Shown piece after piece: positions 22,312 to 44,359 of a stretch of DNA of 64,000 nucleotides (positions within the stretch are counted from its first letter, which is position 1; each line of letters starts with the position of its first letter). The notes under the pieces are model-generated. The model was given only the letters and a program-made list of their open reading frames with translations, searched no databases and had not been told where the DNA came from. The DNA lies in assembly GCA_947497905.1 (NCBI GenBank), contig CANMIH010000006.1, forward strand, positions 146,467 through 210,466, in the 5' to 3' direction. Both the position numbers and the translations under genes were made by a program. Source of the stretch: an uncultured Pelagimonas sp. Its GTDB lineage: Bacteria; Pseudomonadota; Alphaproteobacteria; Rhodobacterales; Rhodobacteraceae.

Positions 22312-22432
22312 CGGAGTGTTTGCCGATTGTCGCGTAAAGAAATAGGGATAGACGGGTGTCCGAATCGCATAACCGCGTTATTGATTCGGTTTAGCGAATC
22401 GTTCGGCCCCCGGCCCCTTTCAGGAGAAGCTC

Positions 22433-35587: not shown

Positions 35588-35620
35588 ACCCGCGCCTTGT
35601 CCCAAGGCGCGGGTTTTATT
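35588..35620. terminator. Strong terminator between ribE and soxT
   Basis: Perfect 12-bp stem ACCCGCGCCTTG / CAAGGCGCGGGT with a 3-base loop, then TTTATT. It lies between the converging ribE and soxT ends. Confidence 0.88.
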
Positions 35621-36668
35621 CTGCCGGTTGGAAGCCTTCGATCAGCTGGCGTAGCCCAATCGCGGCCCCTGCAAAGATAGCGAGAAAGGTCACTGGGGCA
35701 GAGAGCGCCAGAACCGAGAGCGCGGAAAGTCCCTGACCCACCGAGCATCCGAGGGCCAGTACCGCGCCACCTCCCATCAGAGCGGCGCCAAAGATTTGCC
35801 GACGCAGCTCACGCGGGTCTTCGCAGGCTTCCCAGCGGAAATGCCCTTTGAGCATCGAGCCGACAAAGGCCCCGATCCAGACCCCAGTGATTGACCCGAC
35901 GGCGAAAGAAATCGGGCGGGCGGATCCGGTCATGAACCAGAGCAGTGTTTCACCCAGGGGCGCGGCAAAGCTATGTGAAACCACTGGTAAAGCTTCGAAC
36001 CCTTGTTCGTTGACCCAAGAGGTGCCGCCCCAGCCAAGAATGATGGCAAAGCCCACTGCAAGGGCCCAGCCGATGTGTTTGGGTTTGCGCCATAGCTCTC
36101 GGTGCCAGAGGGAGAGAGCGAGGATCAAAGCGCCAATGCTCAACCCGATGCTTGGCATCGCGATCCCGGTCAGATTGCTCAGGTGATGCGCAATGCCCGG
36201 AGGGATCTCTGTGGTGACATCAATCTGAGGAAACAGGGCGTTTCTGATCGGGCCAAGCGGCCCCCAGAGCACAACAAAGGTTGAGACGCCCATGACCAAC
36301 ACGATGACAAAGCTGCGCAGATCGCCGCCGCCAAGCCGGGCCACGGCGCCATAGCCACAGCCTCCGGCCAACGCCATGCCATAGCCAAACACCAACCCGC
36401 CAAGAATGGAGGCAAGGGGCATCCAGCGGATTGAGAGATAATAGGTTTCTGCGCCATCGAGTATGCCAGTGGCCATGAGGCCAAAGCTGCCAAGGATGGC
36501 GGTGCCTATGGCCACGCCCCACATGCGCAACCGTAGGGTTGAGCCACCATAAAGAACGTCTTCGATCGCGCCGAGGGTGCAGAACCGACCCAGACGTGCC
36601 GCAAGACCCAGAAGGATACCACCTAGTAAGCCGATCAGCGCAACGAGAAGAAATTCATTAGACATCAT
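35616..36668 (-). CDS. soxT: YeeE/YedE family membrane protein, SoxT type
   Basis: Polytopic inner-membrane protein of 350 aa with about nine helices and the family Cys motifs ALAGGCGYGAVARLGGGDLRSF and LALGCSVGQGLSA, conserved in thiosulfate/sulfur-compound transporters of the TsuA/YeeE group. The position after soxS-soxR in a sulfur-oxidation cluster matches soxT. Likely imports or signals a sulfur compound; the exact substrate is not settled. Two tandem ATGs; AAGGAGG lies about 14 bases upstream of the first, so the second ATG is less likely. Confidence 0.85.
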   Translation of the reverse strand: MMSNEFLLVALIGLLGGILLGLAARLGRFCTLGAIEDVLYGGSTLRLRMWGVAIGTAILGSFGLMATGILDGAETYYLSIRWMPLASILGGLVFGYGMALAGGCGYGAVARLGGGDLRSFVIVLVMGVSTFVVLWGPLGPIRNALFPQIDVTTEIPPGIAHHLSNLTGIAMPSIGLSIGALILALSLWHRELWRKPKHIGWALAVGFAIILGWGGTSWVNEQGFEALPVVSHSFAAPLGETLLWFMTGSARPISFAVGSITGVWIGAFVGSMLKGHFRWEACEDPRELRRQIFGAALMGGGAVLALGCSVGQGLSALSVLALSAPVTFLAIFAGAAIGLRQLIEGFQPAE

Positions 36669-36776
36669 GGGGGCGCACGAACCCTCCTTGTTCAGGTGGC
36701 GTGTGTGTCAAACCAATATGCGAAGGCTTGAGACGGGCCGCAAGGCATAGATCGTCGCGCTCTGGCAGAGGCGGTG

Positions 36777-37115
36777 TCACTCGTCGTCTTTGCAGAAAAG
36801 CTCGTAGACGCACTCCAGCATCTTCCGTGGCTTGTCATCTGCGAGGCGATAATAGATCGCCTTGCCGTCGCGACGCGGGATCACCAATCCCTCAAGACGC
36901 AGGCGTGACAGCTGTTGGCTGACGGCGGCCTGACGGGCAGATAAAAGCTCTTCCAACTCGGTGACAGATTTCTCACCCGACACCAAATGGCATAGGATCA
37001 TCAATCGGCCTTCATGGCTGATCGCTTTGAGAAAGGCCGACGCGGTGGTCGCCTTTTCAACGATGCTGTCAAGCTCGTCATCAGAAAGATCGTCGTGCAG
37101 TACCGGAAGTGCCAT
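36777..37115 (-). CDS. soxR: ArsR-family repressor SoxR
   Basis: A 112-aa winged-helix regulator that represses sox genes in Paracoccus and relatives. Helix-turn-helix region: ISHEGRLMILCHLVSGEKSVTELEELLSAR with QAAVSQQLSRLRLEGLV recognition part. Cysteines C46-equivalent (ILCHL) and near the C-terminus (ECVYELFC) may sense sulfur compounds. The ATG at 37115 has AAGG in place; the frame opens upstream to a TTG at 37136 that overlaps the soxS stop. Nothing to do with the redox regulator SoxR of enterics (MerR type). Confidence 0.9.
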   Translation of the reverse strand: MALPVLHDDLSDDELDSIVEKATTASAFLKAISHEGRLMILCHLVSGEKSVTELEELLSARQAAVSQQLSRLRLEGLVIPRRDGKAIYYRLADDKPRKMLECVYELFCKDDE

Positions 37116-37132
37116 TGTACCTTGATATCCCG

Positions 37133-37507
37133 TCAATGTGTCGGCGGTTGAAACTCTGTATGGTCCTGAAGCAGGTTCGACAAGATGGGCCAGAAAAAGT
37201 TTTCGCCAGGATAGCCCTCGATCCGGGCCATTTCCTGCCCATCCTCGGTGAGAATGAAGGTCGGCGTGAAGTTCACCCGCCGCGCATAATCCGTGCCCTC
37301 TGGGGGGCCGATATGAAGGTCGGCCAAAACAAGCGGCGCAAATTTCCCTTCCGCCGTATGCGGATAGGCGGGGCCAATCTCATCTTTCCAGGCAGCGCAA
37401 TAGGCGCATCCGGGTTGTTCCACCATCACAAGCTGCACCTCACCGGCCAGGGCCGACAGGGGCAGGACCCCCAAAACTGTTGCAGCGATAAATTTTTTCA
37501 GAGACAT
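37133..37507 (-). CDS. soxS: Periplasmic thioredoxin-like protein SoxS
   Basis: A 124-aa exported thiol protein with a signal peptide (residues 1-21, ending ALAGE) and active site CAYC (C34, C37). In Paracoccus SoxS reactivates the SoxYZ carrier by reducing it. The ATG at 37507 is chosen since it begins a canonical signal peptide; the longer frame to 37540 overlaps the operator. First gene of the leftward soxS-soxR-soxT unit. Confidence 0.9.
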   Translation of the reverse strand: MSLKKFIAATVLGVLPLSALAGEVQLVMVEQPGCAYCAAWKDEIGPAYPHTAEGKFAPLVLADLHIGPPEGTDYARRVNFTPTFILTEDGQEMARIEGYPGENFFWPILSNLLQDHTEFQPPTH

Positions 37508-37537
37508 GCAGCACCAATTGACCGTAGATGAATGCAA

Positions 37538-37556
37538 CACATAATATGAATATGTG
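37538..37556. promoter_or_regulatory. Putative SoxR operator in the soxS-soxV gap
   Basis: Dyad CACATA-N7-TATGTG. Read on the minus strand it is CACATATTCATATTATGTG, which aligns with the sequence in front of soxX (CAGAAATTCATTTCTGTG) over CAnAnATTCAT..TGTG. Location between the divergent soxS and soxV starts matches where SoxR binds in Paracoccus pantotrophus. Confidence 0.65.
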
Positions 37557-37575
37557 ATTTTTTCAAGGAGCCCTC

Positions 37576-38304
37576 ATGTTCGACGTCACCTATTTCGGCG
37601 CGTTGATCGCCGGGTTCGGCGCCTTTTTCACCCCGTGCATTCTGCCGATGGTGCCCTTCTATCTATGTTACATGGCCGGACTTTCAATGGCGGAACTGCG
37701 CGATGACGCAGGCATCGCCCCCGGCGCGCGGGCGCGTCTTGCCGGGCAGGCGGCTTTGTTTGCCTTGGGTGTGACGACCATCTTTATGCTTCTGGGGCTT
37801 GGCGCGACAGCGCTGGGCCAGGCCTTTGCCGATTGGAAACAGCCGCTTAGTTATGTCGCGGCGGCGCTTATTTTCCTGTTTGGCCTGCATTTTCTGGGCA
37901 TTTTCAAAATCGGGTTTCTGTACCGAGAGGCGCGGATAGAAAGCAAATCTGACCCTAAAACCCTGTTTGGGGCCTACGCCATGGGGCTGGCTTTCGGGTT
38001 TGGCTGGACCGCCTGTGTTGGGCCGATTCTCACCACGATCCTGATGATTGCCTCGGGCATGGGCGAGCTGTGGCATGGGGCGACACTTTTGGGGGCGTTT
38101 GGCATTGGCATGACCGCGCCATTTGTTGTCGCAGCCCTGTTCGCGCAGCCCTTTCTGGCTTGGATGCAGCGCAACCGGCGTCACTTGGGGAAGGTCGAAA
38201 AAGCGCTTGGGGTGATGATGATTGTCTTCGCGATTCTGATTGCCACGGATACCGTTGGCTGGATTGCAGAGGTGATGCTGCGTGTGTTCCCCAACTGGGT
38301 CTAA
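37576..38304 (+). CDS. soxV: SoxV, CcdA-family thiol-disulfide membrane transporter
   Basis: Inner-membrane protein of 242 aa with six helices that moves reducing power from cytosolic thioredoxin to periplasmic SoxW. Conserved Cys-Pro contexts are seen in TPCILPMVPFYLCYM and in FGWTACVGPILTTIL, the CcdA family redox pair. AAGGAG precedes the ATG. First gene of the rightward sox operon; 13 bases to soxW. Confidence 0.93.
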   Translation: MFDVTYFGALIAGFGAFFTPCILPMVPFYLCYMAGLSMAELRDDAGIAPGARARLAGQAALFALGVTTIFMLLGLGATALGQAFADWKQPLSYVAAALIFLFGLHFLGIFKIGFLYREARIESKSDPKTLFGAYAMGLAFGFGWTACVGPILTTILMIASGMGELWHGATLLGAFGIGMTAPFVVAALFAQPFLAWMQRNRRHLGKVEKALGVMMIVFAILIATDTVGWIAEVMLRVFPNWV

Positions 38305-38317
38305 AGGGAGGTATGAC

Positions 38318-38893
38318 ATGAAACATTGGATTTTGGGTGCCGCCATGGCGCTTATGGCGCTGCCAGCTGTGGCCGAGATAGGCGATGATGGGCTGCACAA
38401 ACAGCCGTGGATGCGTGAGACCTTCAAAGATCTGGCGGAAGATCTTGACGAGGCCAATGCCGAAGGCAAGCGTCTGGTCCTCTTCTTCGAGCAACGCGGC
38501 TGTATCTATTGCCGCAAAATGCATGAAGAGGTGTTCTCGGATCCCGGCATTTCCGACTACATCGGTGAGAACTTTTTTGTCGTCCAGATGAACATCTATG
38601 GCGATGTTGAGGTGGTGGATTTTGATGGAGAATCGCTCCCCGAAAAACAGATGGCGCGCAAATGGCGGGTGATGTTCACACCCAACATTGTTTTCCTTCC
38701 TGAGGAGGTCCCTGAGGGCCAGACGGCTGTTGAGGCCGCGGTAGCGGTGATGCCGGGTGCTTTTGGAAAAGGGACCACTTTGGACATGTTTACATGGGTT
38801 GCGGAAAGTCGATATCTCCTTGATAACGGTGAGGATTTTCAAAGATACCATGCCCGCATGATCCAAGAACGCAACAACGGTAGTTTTGACTAA
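38318..38893 (+). CDS. soxW: SoxW, periplasmic thioredoxin
   Basis: A 191-aa exported thioredoxin-fold protein: signal peptide 1-19 (AVAEI cleavage), active site CIYC (C62, C65) in LVLFFEQRGCIYCRKMHEEVF and cis-Pro in FTPNIVFL. It accepts electrons from SoxV. AAAGGGAGG is located 7 bases before the ATG. The frame upstream to 38282 overlaps soxV and is not used. Confidence 0.93.
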   Translation: MKHWILGAAMALMALPAVAEIGDDGLHKQPWMRETFKDLAEDLDEANAEGKRLVLFFEQRGCIYCRKMHEEVFSDPGISDYIGENFFVVQMNIYGDVEVVDFDGESLPEKQMARKWRVMFTPNIVFLPEEVPEGQTAVEAAVAVMPGAFGKGTTLDMFTWVAESRYLLDNGEDFQRYHARMIQERNNGSFD

Positions 38894-38899
38894 AACCAA

Positions 38900-38922
38900 C
38901 AGAAATTCATTTCTGTGAATTT
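38900..38922. promoter_or_regulatory. Putative SoxR operator in the soxW-soxX gap
   Basis: Overlapping dyads CAGAAAT-TC-ATTTCTG (38900-38915) and AAATTCA-N6-TGAATTT (38903-38922), about 90 bases before soxX. The first aligns with the soxS-soxV site. Paracoccus SoxR also binds in the soxW-soxX gap. Confidence 0.65.
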
Positions 38923-39008
38923 GTTGTTGCGTCTTCTGTGTTGGGTAGCCTACGGTATACATCAGCGAACGGGGCCCTTCGGGGTTCAAGAAGCCAATGG
39001 GAGGAAAT

Positions 39009-39488
39009 ATGAGGCTTTTTGTAATCACAGCGACAGCGGCGCTGGCGGCAGGCGTGGCATTTGCTGCCGACACCGTGGCGCCCGGCGATGTAGAATATGG
39101 CGAATATGGTGAAGTGACGGCCTCGTTGTCGGGCGCAGCCGGAAACGCCGAAAGTGGCGCCATCATCATGGCGACCAAATCCAAAGGGAATTGCATTTCG
39201 TGTCACGCGGTCACCGCGCTGAACGATTCGCCGTTCCATGGCGAAGTTGGCCCGTCACTGGATGGTGTCGGTGAATATCGCACAGCAGACGAGCTGCGCG
39301 GGATTGTTGCCAACGCCAAGATGACATTTGAAGGGTCGGTGATGCCTGCGTTTTATAAATCCACCGGATTTATTCGCCCGGGCAATGGCTACACCGGCAA
39401 AGCCGCAGAGGGCGATTTGCCTCCGGTCCTGACGGCTCAGGAAATTGAAGATGTGGTCGCGTTCTTGATGACCCTCAAGGACAGCTGA
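39009..39488 (+). CDS. soxX: SoxX, cytochrome c subunit of SoxXA
   Basis: A 159-aa periplasmic monoheme cytochrome, partner of SoxA, that joins thiosulfate to SoxY. Signal peptide 1-20; heme motif CISCH (62-66); a Met ligand is likely in MPAFYKS. The C-terminus LTAQEIEDVVAFLMTL is typical of SoxX. Strong GGGAGG site before the ATG. Followed closely by soxY. Confidence 0.95.
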   Translation: MRLFVITATAALAAGVAFAADTVAPGDVEYGEYGEVTASLSGAAGNAESGAIIMATKSKGNCISCHAVTALNDSPFHGEVGPSLDGVGEYRTADELRGIVANAKMTFEGSVMPAFYKSTGFIRPGNGYTGKAAEGDLPPVLTAQEIEDVVAFLMTLKDS

Positions 39489-39510
39489 CTTTAACCCAAG
39501 GAGACTGACG

Positions 39511-39927
39511 ATGGAGTTTACCCGTCGCGAAACGCTGGCTCTTGGAGCCGGTGCAGCGCTGATGACTGTCCTGCCGTTCCGTGCGAATGCGGCTGTGGAT
39601 GATCTGATCAACGAATTTACTGGTGGCGCCGCTGTTGCGGACGGGGGCCTTGAGCTGACCGCGCCTGAAATCGCGGAAAACGGCAACACCGTTCCGATCG
39701 CGGTTTCTGCTGAGGGCGCCACGGCGATCATGGTTCTGGCGGCCGGTAACCCGACCCCACCTGTCGCGACCTTCAAGTTCGGCAAGCTTGCGGCGGCTCA
39801 GGAAGCCTCGACCCGTATTCGCCTTGCTGGCACTCAGGACGTGGTTGCGATTGCTCAGCTTGCCGATGGCAGCTTTGCCCGCGCGTCGAAGACCGTAAAG
39901 GTCACCATTGGCGGCTGCGGCGGCTAA
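39511..39927 (+). CDS. soxY: SoxY, sulfur-carrier subunit
   Basis: A 138-aa carrier exported by the Tat pathway (signal with TRRETLALGAG). The protein ends in the essential swinging-arm motif GGCGG, whose Cys binds the thiosulfate-derived sulfur during oxidation. Good AAGGAG site. SoxZ follows after 19 bases, and the two form the SoxYZ complex. Confidence 0.96.
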   Translation: MEFTRRETLALGAGAALMTVLPFRANAAVDDLINEFTGGAAVADGGLELTAPEIAENGNTVPIAVSAEGATAIMVLAAGNPTPPVATFKFGKLAAAQEASTRIRLAGTQDVVAIAQLADGSFARASKTVKVTIGGCGG

Positions 39928-39946
39928 GTTAGAGGAGATTTGAACA

Positions 39947-40276
39947 ATGGCATCCGGTGTTAAACCCCGCGTCAAAGTCCCGAAAAAAGCCGCTGTTGGT
40001 GAAGCAATCACCATCAAAACCCTGATTTCGCACAAGATGGAATCGGGTCAGCGCAAAGACAAATCGGGCAACATCATTCCGCGTTCGATCATCAACCGTT
40101 TCACCTGTGACTTTAACGGTGAAAACGTGATCGACGTGACCTTGGAACCCGCGATTTCGACCAACCCGTATCTCGAATTCCAAGCAACTGTACCCTCCGA
40201 GGGTGAGTTCAAGTTCACTTGGTATGACGATGACGGTTCCGTCTACGACGCTGCCAAGAAGATCGCCATCGGCTAA
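39947..40276 (+). CDS. soxZ: SoxZ, SoxY partner protein
   Basis: A 109-aa protein without a signal peptide; it is carried to the periplasm with SoxY (hitch-hiker export). Begins MASGVKPRVKVPKKA and contains ISHKMESGQRKD and the conserved FKFTWYDDDGS. It has no Cys at the tip and acts as a scaffold. The following 58 bp hold a stable hairpin. Confidence 0.95.
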   Translation: MASGVKPRVKVPKKAAVGEAITIKTLISHKMESGQRKDKSGNIIPRSIINRFTCDFNGENVIDVTLEPAISTNPYLEFQATVPSEGEFKFTWYDDDGSVYDAAKKIAIG

Positions 40277-40288
40277 CCGACGGCTTGA

Positions 40289-40313
40289 CCCTGCCCCGGC
40301 GCGAGGGGCAGGG
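40289..40313 (+). other. Intercistronic hairpin, soxZ-soxA
   Basis: Perfect 9-bp stem CCCTGCCCC / GGGGCAGGG with a 7-base loop and no following T-run. Likely an mRNA-stabilising or processing element rather than a terminator. Confidence 0.6.
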
Positions 40314-40334
40314 CGCCAATAGGGAGGGAACAGA

Positions 40335-41192
40335 ATGAATTTTAAGGCACTGACGGCGATTGCCTCGGCACTGACATTGAGCGCATCATTTGTGGCCGCG
40401 GGCGGCGCAGATGACGACACTTTGGTGGTGAATGACGAGATCTCGATCGTCACAAAAGCTGCGGCTCCAGCTCATATGGCTGATGCCGTAGATGAAGTTA
40501 TTTCGGGCTGGCACTTCCGCACAGACGAAACACAGTCGCTTCAGGCGGATGACTTTGACAACCCAGGCATGCTTTTTGTTGAGCAGGGACTGGATGTCTG
40601 GAACACCGCAGACGGCTCTGAGGGCAAATCCTGTGCAGATTGTCATGGTGACCCTGAGGAATCCATGGTGGGTGTTCGTACAGTGTACCCCAAATGGAAC
40701 GAGGCCGCCGGCGAAGTTCGCACTCTGCAGATGCAGATGAATGACTGCCGCGAAAACCGCATGGGGGCTGAGGCGTGGAAATACGACAAAGCCGATGCGA
40801 TCAATGTCGAAGCTATGATTGCTTCGGTGTCGCGCGGTCTGCCGATGAATGTGGCCATTGATGGTCCGGCGGCGGCAACCTGGGAACAGGGCAAAGAGCT
40901 GTATTACACCCGGACCGGTCAGCTTGAACTGTCCTGTGCCAACTGCCACGAGCAGAACTTTGGCAACTACATCCGGGCGGACCATCTCAGCCAGGGTCAG
41001 ATCAACGGGTTCCCGACCTATCGTCTGAAAAACGCCAAGTTGAATGGTGTGCACTCGCGCTTTAAAGGCTGCGTACGTGACACCCGCGCCGAAACCTACA
41101 AACCGGGTTCGGCCGAGTTTGTGGCGCTTGAGCTTTATGTCGCCTCACGCGGCAACGGTCTGTCGGTCGAAGGCCCGTCGGTTCGTAACTAA
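40335..41192 (+). CDS. soxA: SoxA, diheme cytochrome subunit of SoxXA
   Basis: A 285-aa periplasmic protein with a signal peptide (about 1-22) and two CxxCH motifs (SCADCH and SCANCH), one active heme plus one structural heme. The catalytic Cys-persulfide residue is in RFKGCVRDTRAE. Together with SoxX it oxidatively couples thiosulfate to the SoxY Cys. GGAGGG before the ATG. It is different from sarcosine oxidase SoxA. Confidence 0.95.
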   Translation: MNFKALTAIASALTLSASFVAAGGADDDTLVVNDEISIVTKAAAPAHMADAVDEVISGWHFRTDETQSLQADDFDNPGMLFVEQGLDVWNTADGSEGKSCADCHGDPEESMVGVRTVYPKWNEAAGEVRTLQMQMNDCRENRMGAEAWKYDKADAINVEAMIASVSRGLPMNVAIDGPAAATWEQGKELYYTRTGQLELSCANCHEQNFGNYIRADHLSQGQINGFPTYRLKNAKLNGVHSRFKGCVRDTRAETYKPGSAEFVALELYVASRGNGLSVEGPSVRN

Positions 41193-41198
41193 AATTTC

Positions 41199-41237
41199 TG
41201 CCCCGTGCCCGATTTGTCGTGGCGCGGGGCATTTTCC
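41199..41237 (+). terminator. Terminator-like hairpin, soxA-soxB
   Basis: TGCCCCG-T-GCC / GGC-G-CGGGGCA (10 bp plus a possible G-U pair, 11-base loop) followed by TTTTCC. It may reduce read-through from soxA into soxB. Confidence 0.6.
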
Positions 41238-41295
41238 ATGAAAACGAATTCACACATGCGCATGTGTGTCGCGAGAGAGAAAGAAAGATCCTCCT

Positions 41296-42996
41296 ATGAT
41301 CTCAAGACGCGATTTTCTTCAGGTGTCCATGGCTGCTACGGCGCTCTATGGGTCGTCGGGTTTTGGCAACTGGGCCCGCCTGGCGGCGCAGCAGAGCCTG
41401 ACACAGGACCAGCTGTTGCAGTTCGACACCTTTGGCAATGTCTCCCTGATCCATGTGACAGACATCCATGCGCAGTTGATGCCGATCTATTTCCGTGAGC
41501 CTTCGGTCAATATCGGTGTGGGCGGCAACAAAGGCGCAGTGCCGCATGTCACCGGCGCGGATTTCCGCAAGCTCTATGGTGTGAACGACGGGTCGCCCTC
41601 GCATTACGCGCTCAGCTCGGGTGATTTTGAGGCGCTGGCGCGGGGCTATGGCAAAGTGGGCGGATTGGACCGTGTTGCCACCGTGGTGAACTCGATCCGT
41701 GCTGATCGCCCGGATGCAATCCTGCTGGACGGCGGGGACACCTGGCACGGCTCTTACACCTGTCACCACACCGAAGGTCAGGACATGGTCAATGTCATGA
41801 ACGGCCTGAAGCCGGATGCGATGACCTTCCACTGGGAATTCACCTTGGGTTCGGAACGGGTGCAGGAGATTGTTGAAGGCCTGCCGTTCGCGGCGCTGGG
41901 GCAGAACATCTTTGATGCAGAATGGGATGAACCTGCGCTGGATCTGTTCCCGCCTTATAAGTTCTTTGAGCGCGGTGGCGTGAAGGTGGCCGTGATTGGT
42001 CAGGCCTTCCCCTATATGCCGATCGCAAACCCGCGCTGGATGTTCCCGGAATACTCGTTTGGTATTCGCGACGAGAACATGCAGGCCATGGTCGACGAAG
42101 TGCGCTCAAAAGGCGCTGAATGCGTTGTGGTCCTGAGCCACAATGGATTTGACGTCGACAAAAAGATGGCCGGCCGTGTGAAAGGCATTGATGTGATCCT
42201 GTCGGGTCACACCCATGATGCGTTGCCCGAGCCGGTTGTGGTCGAAGACACGATCATTGTGGCCTCGGGCTCAAATGGCAAGTTCGTCAGCCGCGTGGAT
42301 CTCGACATTCGTGACGGCCGCATGATGGGCTACCGTCACAAGCTGATCCCGATCTTCTCGGATGTGATTACGCCTGATGCGGATATGACCGCCTTGATCA
42401 ACGAACAACGCGCCCCGTATCTGGACCAGCTGACCGAGGTCATTGGCCACACTGACAGCACCCTGTACCGTCGTGGCAACTTCAACGGCTCGTGGGATGA
42501 CCTGATCTGTGACGCGCTGATTTCCGAGCGCGAAGCCGATATCGCCATGTCGCCCGGTGTGCGCTGGGGACCGTCGCTGTTGCCCGGCGATGCTATCACC
42601 CGCGAAGACATCTGGAACGTAACCTCGATGTCCTATGGTGAGGCCTATCGTTCGGAAATGACCGGTGAGTTTATCAAGGTGATCCTTGAAGACGTGGCCG
42701 ACAACATCTTTAACCCGGATCCGTATTACCAGCAGGGCGGCGATATGGTGCGTGTGGGTGGCCTTGGCTATCGCATCGACATCAACAAGCCGCAGGGCGA
42801 ACGGGTCACGGATATGACTTTGCTGAAAACCGGCGAAGCCATTGATCCGGCGAAAAACTATGTCGTTGCTGGCTGGGCCAGTGTGAACGAGGGCACCGAA
42901 GGGCCACAGATTTGGGACGTGGTGGAAAGCCATATCCGCAAACAGGGCACCGTAACGGTCGATCCGAACAACTCAGTACAGGTGGTGGGCGCATAA
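41296..42996 (+). CDS. soxB: SoxB, sulfate thiohydrolase
   Basis: Dimanganese periplasmic enzyme (566 aa) that releases sulfate from SoxY-bound sulfonate. Tat signal SRRDFLQVS; metal-site motifs HVTDIHAQLMP, DGGDTWHGSY, SHNGFDVD and GHTHDALP are those of the 5'-nucleotidase-type metallophosphatase family. The C-terminal nucleotidase domain contains WDDLICDALISEREADIAMSPG. The ATG at 41296 is used; an upstream ATG at 41266 would put extra residues before the Tat motif. Confidence 0.95.
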   Translation: MISRRDFLQVSMAATALYGSSGFGNWARLAAQQSLTQDQLLQFDTFGNVSLIHVTDIHAQLMPIYFREPSVNIGVGGNKGAVPHVTGADFRKLYGVNDGSPSHYALSSGDFEALARGYGKVGGLDRVATVVNSIRADRPDAILLDGGDTWHGSYTCHHTEGQDMVNVMNGLKPDAMTFHWEFTLGSERVQEIVEGLPFAALGQNIFDAEWDEPALDLFPPYKFFERGGVKVAVIGQAFPYMPIANPRWMFPEYSFGIRDENMQAMVDEVRSKGAECVVVLSHNGFDVDKKMAGRVKGIDVILSGHTHDALPEPVVVEDTIIVASGSNGKFVSRVDLDIRDGRMMGYRHKLIPIFSDVITPDADMTALINEQRAPYLDQLTEVIGHTDSTLYRRGNFNGSWDDLICDALISEREADIAMSPGVRWGPSLLPGDAITREDIWNVTSMSYGEAYRSEMTGEFIKVILEDVADNIFNPDPYYQQGGDMVRVGGLGYRIDINKPQGERVTDMTLLKTGEAIDPAKNYVVAGWASVNEGTEGPQIWDVVESHIRKQGTVTVDPNNSVQVVGA

Positions 42997-43006
42997 GCGC
43001 CCCCAC
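42982..43006 (+). other. Hairpin over the soxB stop codon
   Basis: GTGG-T-GGGCGC / GCGCCC-CCAC with a single-base bulge and ATAA loop; the soxB stop TAA is in the loop. A T-rich stretch starts about 15 bases later, so partial termination is possible. Confidence 0.5.
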
Positions 43007-43078
43007 GCTTCACCCGCATTTATTTTTTACGCAATCCATTTACATAGATGAATGAGATGATCCGAAAGGAGGCACAAG

Positions 43079-44359
43079 ATGGCAGATGACAAGAGGCAGG
43101 GCGCCTCGCGCCGCCAGTTCCTGACCGGCGCCGCCGCGATGGGCGCAGGCACCGTGGCCGCAGGTATGGCCAAAGCGGCCGGTCCCGACCCATTGATCAC
43201 CGAGGTTCAAGAGTGGGCCAGCGGCCTGGGCGATGGCGTTGATGCCTCCCCCTATGGCCTGCCAATCAAATACGAAGACGACGTGGTGCGCCGCAATGTT
43301 GAGTGGCTGACCGCGGATACCATTTCATCGATCAACTTCACCCCCATTCATGCGTTGGACGGCACCATCACACCACAGGGCTGCGCCTTTGAACGCCACC
43401 ATTCGGGTGCGATCGAGCTGCGCAAAGAAGACTACCGTCTGATGATCAACGGTTTGGTCGATACACCTCTGGTGTTCTCCTATGCCGATCTTGAGCGCTT
43501 CCCACGTCAGCAGCATGTCTATTTCTGCGAATGTGCGGCCAACACCGGCATGGAATGGGCGGGTGCCCAGCTGAACGGCGCGCAGTTCACGCACGGTATG
43601 ATCCACAATATGGAATACACCGGTGTCTCGCTGCGCACGCTTCTGGAAGAGGCCGGTCTGGCTGCGGCGGGCGATCTGAAAGACAAATGGGTTTATGTCG
43701 AGGGGGCGGATGCCTCGTCGAATGGTCGGTCGATCCCCATGGAGAAGGCGCTGGATGATGTGCTGGTGGCCTTCAAGGCCAATGGCGAAGCGCTGCGCAA
43801 GGAACATGGCTATCCCGTGCGTCTGGTTGTACCCGGTTGGGAAGGCAACATGTGGGTCAAATGGCTGCGTCGTATCGAGGTCATGGATGGCCCGGTAGAA
43901 AGCCGCGAAGAGACCTCGAAATACACCGATACGCTGGAAGATGGCACCAGCCGCAAGTGGACCTGGGTTATGGACGCCAAATCGGTTGTCACCTCACCCA
44001 GCCCGCAGTCACCCATCAAACATGGGCACGGCCCGCTGGTGATCACGGGTCTGGCTTGGACCGGGCATGGGCGCATTACGCGTGTGGATGTGTCGAAAGA
44101 CGGTGGCAAGACCTGGGAAACCGCACGTCTGGCCAAAGAAGGCGAAGACAAAGCGTTGACCCGCTTCTATCTCGACACTGAGTGGAACGGTGAAGAGATG
44201 CTGCTGCAATCGCGCGCCATGGACGAAACTGGCTATGTCCAGCCCTCCAAAGCTCAGCTGCGTGAGGTGCGCGGGTTGAACTCGATCTATCACAACAACT
44301 GCATCCAGACCTGGCATGTCAAAGCCAATGGGGAGGCCGAGAATGTCGAAGTTTCTTAA
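43079..44359 (+). CDS. soxC: SoxC, sulfane dehydrogenase molybdenum subunit
   Basis: Periplasmic Mo-cofactor subunit (426 aa) of SoxCD, which oxidises the remaining sulfane sulfur with release of six electrons. Tat signal SRRQFLTGAA; the sulfite-oxidase fold region PTYFCECAANTGMEWAGAQ-like segment carries the Mo-ligand Cys context, followed by a C-terminal Mo-co dimerisation domain (ITGLAWTGHGRITRVDVSKDGG). AAAGGAGG precedes the ATG. Its presence predicts full oxidation to sulfate without sulfur globules. Overlaps soxD by 17 bases. Confidence 0.95.
   Translation: MADDKRQGASRRQFLTGAAAMGAGTVAAGMAKAAGPDPLITEVQEWASGLGDGVDASPYGLPIKYEDDVVRRNVEWLTADTISSINFTPIHALDGTITPQGCAFERHHSGAIELRKEDYRLMINGLVDTPLVFSYADLERFPRQQHVYFCECAANTGMEWAGAQLNGAQFTHGMIHNMEYTGVSLRTLLEEAGLAAAGDLKDKWVYVEGADASSNGRSIPMEKALDDVLVAFKANGEALRKEHGYPVRLVVPGWEGNMWVKWLRRIEVMDGPVESREETSKYTDTLEDGTSRKWTWVMDAKSVVTSPSPQSPIKHGHGPLVITGLAWTGHGRITRVDVSKDGGKTWETARLAKEGEDKALTRFYLDTEWNGEEMLLQSRAMDETGYVQPSKAQLREVRGLNSIYHNNCIQTWHVKANGEAENVEVS

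Follow-up and report, generated by a model that had tools for sequence, protein, structure and literature searches.

The 64,000-nucleotide stretch of DNA analysed here (the window), from an uncultured Pelagimonas sp., carries a complete sox cluster, the minus strand holding soxT-soxR-soxS (35616-37507) and the plus strand soxVW-XYZA-B-CD onwards, and raises the question of which sequences its SoxR would recognise. SoxR of sox clusters is an ArsR-family repressor and a different protein from the enteric SoxR, which is of the MerR type. The window SoxR contains an ArsR/SmtB winged helix (NF033788, above cut-off), its best PDB matches are the R. capsulatus SqrR structures 6o8k-6o8o (E 1e-33), and in an alignment to these structures both of its cysteines align with the sulfur-sensing cysteines of SqrR. 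It is homologous to the NCBIfam BigR equivalog NF040642 but is not filed as BigR, scoring 97 bits against a cut-off of 155. The genome encodes a paralogue of SoxR on another contig (C13), 62% identical and with both cysteines; the gene for this second SoxR/SqrR-like repressor (locus L126, 9081-9401) lies between a GNAT acetyltransferase gene and an enolase-superfamily gene.

A sequence-only reading of the window had proposed two similar dyads as SoxR operators, one before soxV/soxS (CACATATTCATATTATGTG, 37538-37556, minus strand) and one before soxX (CAGAAATTCATTTCTGTG, 38900-38917, plus strand), with the common pattern CAnAnATTCAT..TGTG. Both dyads are indeed present. The common pattern, however, was found ungapped and without mismatch in the soxS-soxV dyad only, because ATTCAT and TGTG are separated by 4 bases there and by 3 in the soxW-soxX dyad. 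Bare dyads of this kind are weak evidence by themselves: the window contains 265 perfect 6-bp inverted repeats with loops of up to 8, and when the soxS-soxV gap is shuffled, 13% of the resulting sequences contain at least one. In aligned gaps of relatives, all six base pairs were kept in 1 of 55 cases (soxS-soxV) and in 0 of 66 (soxW-soxX).

The published recognition sequence of R. capsulatus SqrR is ATTC-N8-GAAT (PMC9774250). This motif is not enriched in the window by itself (16 matches vs. 27 expected, with one mismatch allowed), and comparative data were therefore needed. We collected 80 soxB loci, each with flanks of up to 10 kb, from other Rhodobacterales and close relatives, located the sox genes and counted ATTC-Nk-GAAT in every cluster gap, for k = 4 to 14 and at most one arm mismatch. 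Enrichment was seen at a spacer of 8 only, and in four gaps only: soxW-soxX (69 of 72 clusters, 58 of them exact, vs. 2-20 for other spacers), soxA-soxB (60 of 79 vs. 0-17), soxS-soxV (39 of 75 vs. 4-23) and soxB-soxC (13 of 77, 8 exact, vs. 0-5). In the soxX-Y, Y-Z, Z-A, V-W, R-T and S-R gaps of the same loci, ATTC-N8-GAAT stayed at chance level. Column permutation of the matrices reduced the strong matches over all loci from 248 to 18-51. The conserved element is thus a predicted operator of the SqrR type, ATTC-N8-GAAT, overlapping each of the two dyads in another register.

In the window the element occurs in all four gaps (Table 1), with no arm mismatch in the soxW-soxX gap, one each in the soxA-soxB and soxB-soxC gaps, and three (ATAT/GATT) in the soxS-soxV gap. 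The arm pairs of the soxW-soxX site are complementary in 91-100% of relatives, and a matrix built from the relatives' soxW-soxX sites placed the window's own soxW-soxX site first and its soxB-soxC site second. For cross-validation, we scanned both strands of the window (127,970 positions) with a matrix whose only source was the soxS-soxV sites of 55 relatives. The four highest scores fell on the soxS-soxV (37544, 24.2), soxA-soxB (41248, 15.0), soxB-soxC (43038, 14.3) and soxW-soxX (38905, 14.2) sites, the last tied with one unrelated position (26408, 14.2). The training sites had been picked with scores that favour the motif, which confers an advantage within a gap and none between gaps. A matrix from 69 soxA-soxB sites likewise placed the soxA-soxB site first, followed by those of soxW-soxX and soxB-soxC. 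Since a matrix from one gap recovers the sites of the others, we consider the four sites to be one motif. A further match in the window, at 22384 (ATTCGGTTTAGCGAAT), is followed after 34 bp by a 664-aa ORF without any obvious sulfur function; we took it to be a chance match.

Table 1. Genes, predicted operators, candidate promoters and related elements at the sox cluster, and predicted operators elsewhere in the genome
Feature	Position	Strand	Remarks
soxR	36777..37112	-	ArsR-family repressor, SqrR type, both sensor cysteines
soxS, first gene of soxSRT	37133..37507	-	transcribed away from the operator; synteny with relatives
soxV (CcdA/DsbD-like thiol transporter)	37576..38304	+	synteny and profile search
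soxX, first gene of soxXYZA	39009..39488	+	NCBIfam TIGR04485, above cut-off
Candidate soxV promoter	37518..37545	+	TTGACC-N16-CATAAT; -10 (37540-37545) overlaps the operator
Candidate soxS promoter	37538..37566	-	TTGAAA (37566-37561), 17-bp spacer, TATGTG (37543-37538); operator in the spacer; -10 a poor match
Predicted soxS-soxV operator	37544..37559	+	ATATGAATATGTGATT, degenerate; replaces dyad 37538-37556
Predicted soxW-soxX operator	38905..38920	+	ATTCATTTCTGTGAAT, perfect ATTC-N8-GAAT; replaces dyad 38900-38917
Candidate soxX promoter	38927..38956	+	TTGCGT-N18-TACGGT, directly 3' of the operator; placed by its spacing
GC-rich hairpin after soxA, then a short T-rich stretch	41200..41230	+	just 5' of the soxA-soxB operator; GCGGGG-TTTTT conserved in relatives
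Predicted soxA-soxB operator	41248..41263	+	ATTCACACATGCGCAT, about 33 bp before soxB; missed by the sequence-only reading
Predicted soxB-soxC operator	43038..43053	-	ATTCATCTATGTAAAT, single mismatch in the arms; soxC follows after about 26 bp; in a minority of relatives
ATTC-N8-GAAT before the SulP sulfate permease gene and before the BlhST-sulfide:quinone reductase fusion gene	L123 (contig C9) 4129-4144, 5931-5946		
Predicted operator at the start of apparently exported metallo-beta-lactamase-fold genes (some SoxH-like)	L125 7230-7245, L124 6986-7001		separate loci

The soxS-soxV site is the one where the window departs most from the motif. Its relatives have ATNTGAATATGTGAAT or AATCTAATTTGTGAAT at this place, or in two lineages a strong AATCAAATATTTGAAT, and most of them show 0-2 mismatches to strict ATTC-N8-GAAT; the window has GATT in place of GAAT. 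Among 56 aligned soxS-soxV gaps (that of the window included), the right-hand GAAT shows 88-96% conservation, and on the left most gaps have ATNT or AATC. The half-site common to the soxS-soxV and soxW-soxX gaps reads TGTGAAT on the plus strand, since the aligned gaps and P. pantotrophus share this frame. With TGTGATT, the window differs from it by one substitution, which makes its soxS-soxV site weaker than the other three; the symmetric soxW-soxX matrix scores this site at just 2.0 bits.

This register alters what can be kept of the earlier proposal. SoxR operators in both gaps are well supported by the conserved element, by its match to the SqrR site and by the way in which site strength tracks the type of SoxR (see below), but the motif as originally drawn was wrong in both register and orientation. 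ATTCAT is not a half-site common to the two gaps: the copy in soxS-soxV does not correspond to that in soxW-soxX, and the apparent match ran across opposite strands. The left arm of the soxS-soxV dyad, CACATA, is the reverse complement of the candidate soxS -10 (TATGTG) and overlaps the soxV -10 (CATAAT). A weaker ATTCAT match suspected in reverse orientation at 43042-43056 did point to an element in the soxB-soxC gap; its true position is 43038-43053 (ATTTACATAGATGAAT, 7 of 8 arm positions).

Taken together, it is very probable that the SoxR encoded at 36777-37112, whose binding we infer from these comparisons, has operators in the soxS-soxV, soxW-soxX, soxA-soxB and soxB-soxC gaps. The candidate soxV promoter was the best promoter-like match in 37480-43100 (10 of 12 positions), and a similar TTGACG-N16-CATAAT spacing is repeated in the soxS-soxV gaps of relatives. 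The CTTGA block of the candidate soxS promoter (CAAG on the plus strand) is 88-98% conserved in the 56 aligned gaps. In 66 relatives, TTGTTGTTGCGT and TACGGT blocks are conserved 3' of the soxW-soxX operator, which in the window ends 6 bp before the candidate soxX -35, TTGCGT. The promoter scan of 37480-43100 gave no clear promoter before soxX, soxB or soxC.

We propose that a SoxR dimer would read ATTC-N8-GAAT. In the soxS-soxV gap, one dimer would cover the -10 and the start of the soxV promoter as well as the -35/-10 spacer of the divergent soxS promoter; with a single dimer over both promoters, soxVW and soxSRT would be repressed together and SoxR would be autoregulated. Between soxW and soxX, bound SoxR would abut the -35 of the candidate soxX promoter. 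The sites before soxB and soxC may provide the downstream blocks with their own SoxR-controlled entry points or promoters behind the soxA hairpin; such soxB and soxC promoters are putative, as none stands out in the scan. The sequence of the hairpin suggests a terminator or an mRNA-stability or RNA-processing element within the sox operon, ahead of the soxB operator. Thiosulfate would raise the level of sulfane sulfur in the cytoplasm, perhaps with SoxT as the importer; the two SoxR cysteines would then become joined by a sulfur bridge and SoxR would leave the DNA, allowing expression of the cluster. Release through a sulfur bridge is proposed here by analogy with H. denitrificans SoxR and R. 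capsulatus SqrR, and repression is likewise a prediction. B. diazoefficiens SoxR represses soxS, soxV, soxW and soxY (PMC5748708), and H. denitrificans SoxR binds sox intergenic regions until treated with polysulfide (PMC10451225).

If the element is read by SoxR, its strength might be expected to follow the SoxR protein encoded nearby. Locus by locus, the SoxR encoded next to soxS was set against the score of the best soxW-soxX site. The sequence-only reading would have been contradicted by relatives with the same soxR and no motif; with the corrected motif, 70 of 71 relatives with a two-cysteine SoxR carry a soxW-soxX site of at least 11 bits (the exception is L074), a count in which shared ancestry is a confounding factor. 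Where one or both cysteines of SoxR are absent from the usual positions (five clusters), the scores were 2.1, 6.0, 13.4, 13.9 and -2.9, i.e. three of five were below 11 and none reached 14. Two Paracoccus records, where the second cysteine has moved to the C-terminal end, scored about 4 in the soxW-soxX gap. The site was weak or absent in L117, L118, L081 and Paracoccus, and there was none in L116, a cluster without a linked soxR. Two clusters are exceptions that have kept a strong soxW-soxX site: in L120 soxR is gone from beside soxS, with a 57% homologue elsewhere, and in L122 it is on another contig. In a class-wide sample, each fetched locus of 2.6-3.3 kb was represented by its highest-scoring site, wherever it lay; scores were higher in clusters where soxS, soxV or soxW is near soxX than in the remaining clusters (Mann-Whitney P = 0.001, again confounded by ancestry). 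Loss or relocation of a SoxR cysteine thus mostly goes with a weak operator, a co-variation confounded by ancestry. As to the proteins themselves, the second sensor cysteine is at the very C-terminus of SoxR in L176 and L177 (Paracoccus pantotrophus DSM 11072 and P. versutus) and in L081; it is missing in L117 and L118, and both usual cysteines are gone in L119 and L121. In all of these clusters, ATTC-N8-GAAT sites are weak or lacking.

A pattern search for exact ATTCA-N6-TGAAT found eight places in the 5.0-Mb genome: the soxW-soxX gap, upstream of the SulP permease gene, a SoxH-related metallo-beta-lactamase (MBL)-fold protein, a second, exported-looking MBL-fold protein, two phn genes and two others. 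The SulP permease is encoded downstream of the BlhST-sulfide:quinone reductase (SQR) gene, which has ATTCGATAGATTGAAT 42 bp before its start. In about 12 other relatives, the sox cluster ends with an apparently Tat-exported MBL gene whose start lies directly at such a site; sox loci ending in this way include L011, L021, L033 and L067. An exact-site search in six relatives returned soxX in six of six and, among the fetched matches, at least one SQR gene, at least one SoxH-like gene and at least one second MBL gene. It is plausible from these sequences that the SulP, SQR and MBL sites form a wider sulfane-sulfur regulon. We set aside one genome match inside a coding region (L111) and two on contig C20 (L114 and L115), where ATTCATCCGNATGAAT precedes phnF-like and phnD-like genes and shares the arms of the motif with a different spacer consensus. 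The ATTCATCCGNATGAAT sites are probably operators of another, PhnF-like regulator; they also precede phosphonate genes of the phnF/phnD type in another genome (G021, contig C3; L136 and L141).

Three other readings of these data deserve consideration. The operators could be read by the unlinked C13 paralogue, an SqrR/BigR-like protein, or by both proteins, as with sHdrR and SoxR in H. denitrificans. The 62% identity and two cysteines of this paralogue fit such a role, as do the occurrence of ATTC-N8-GAAT before SQR, SulP and MBL genes, which are typical targets of SqrR/BigR-type regulators, and the retention of the site in L120 with only an unlinked homologue. In H. denitrificans, two related repressors bind the same sox regions (PMC12423496). 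The sites, however, are densest at the sox cluster, where SoxR itself is encoded, and they vary in strength with the type of the linked SoxR, although this is still compatible with sharing, and no exact ATTC-N8-GAAT was found within the 18 kb fetched around the C13 paralogue gene. On balance we consider this reading unlikely, while recognising that SoxR is perhaps not the sole reader of the sites, given that L120 keeps its site without soxR and that the genome holds a 62% paralogue.

The earlier dyads themselves (CACATA-N7-TATGTG and CAGAAA-N4-TTTCTG) are present and overlap the conserved element, but they are hardly ever kept in relatives, their arms are spaced differently in the two copies, and overlapping -10 hexamers account for the left arm of the soxS-soxV dyad; that they are the operators is very improbable. 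We give equally little credence to a reading of the conserved blocks as mere promoter elements or, in the case of soxA-soxB, as an mRNA hairpin. The soxS-soxV element does overlap a -10, and the perfect soxA-soxB palindrome CACACATGCGCATGTGTG could fold in the mRNA. Against this, the 16-bp motif is shared by four gaps and stands at varying distances from promoters, and it is ATTC and G[AC]AT that relatives keep at soxA-soxB; the hairpin was rejected on account of its poorly conserved inner palindrome.

The preferred reading, SoxR operators of the form ATTC-N8-GAAT, places the locus among known systems. P. pantotrophus and Pseudaminobacter salicylatoxidans share with the window the gene order, the same two gaps and an ArsR-type repressor. 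Reportedly, in work by Rother in 2005 and Mandal in 2007, SoxR binds both the soxS-soxV and soxW-soxX gaps. The analogy to P. pantotrophus drawn by the sequence-only reading is only partial: the SoxR of that species is of a divergent type, 58% identical to the window SoxR and with its second cysteine at the very C-terminus, and at the equivalent places both of its gaps have no more than a degenerate element (ATTT-GAACATAG-GAAT in soxS-soxV, in the same register as the window site). The P. pantotrophus soxW-soxX site is degenerate, whereas that of the window is perfect, and no soxA-soxB site was seen in the P. pantotrophus cluster. With such an atypical SoxR and degenerate sites, its binding data are not transferable base for base. 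R. capsulatus SqrR has an identical consensus and is the nearest solved homologue of the window SoxR, with SQR among the predicted targets here; it is a master regulator of the sulfide response, whereas the main targets in the window would be thiosulfate-oxidation operons. H. denitrificans SoxR and sHdrR are also ArsR-type sox repressors with two conserved cysteines and polysulfide release (PMC10451225, PMC12423496); that organism differs in having a truncated Sox system with sHdr genes. A term search of the open SoxR papers, including PMC10451225, PMC12423496 and PMC5748708, returned no operator sequence.

Control by SoxR operators is a known kind of regulation, described here with a corrected consensus, extra predicted operators and a predicted wider regulon. 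In the literature searched, we found no mention of the predicted operators inside the cluster (before soxB and soxC) or of the predicted unlinked targets (SQR, SulP and two metallo-hydrolases). The analysis turns a guess of two dyads into a testable SoxR operator consensus across the marine Rhodobacterales, which play an important part in thiosulfate oxidation in the sea. More broadly, SoxR and its SqrR-like paralogue may read a common ATTC-N8-GAAT code that unites thiosulfate oxidation (through four operators, including those before soxB and soxC), sulfide oxidation (SQR), SulP and exported SoxH-like metallo-hydrolases in one sulfane-sulfur regulon, here and in relatives, with loss or relocation of a sensor cysteine going together with loss of the operator, a view to which we would give slightly less than an even chance.
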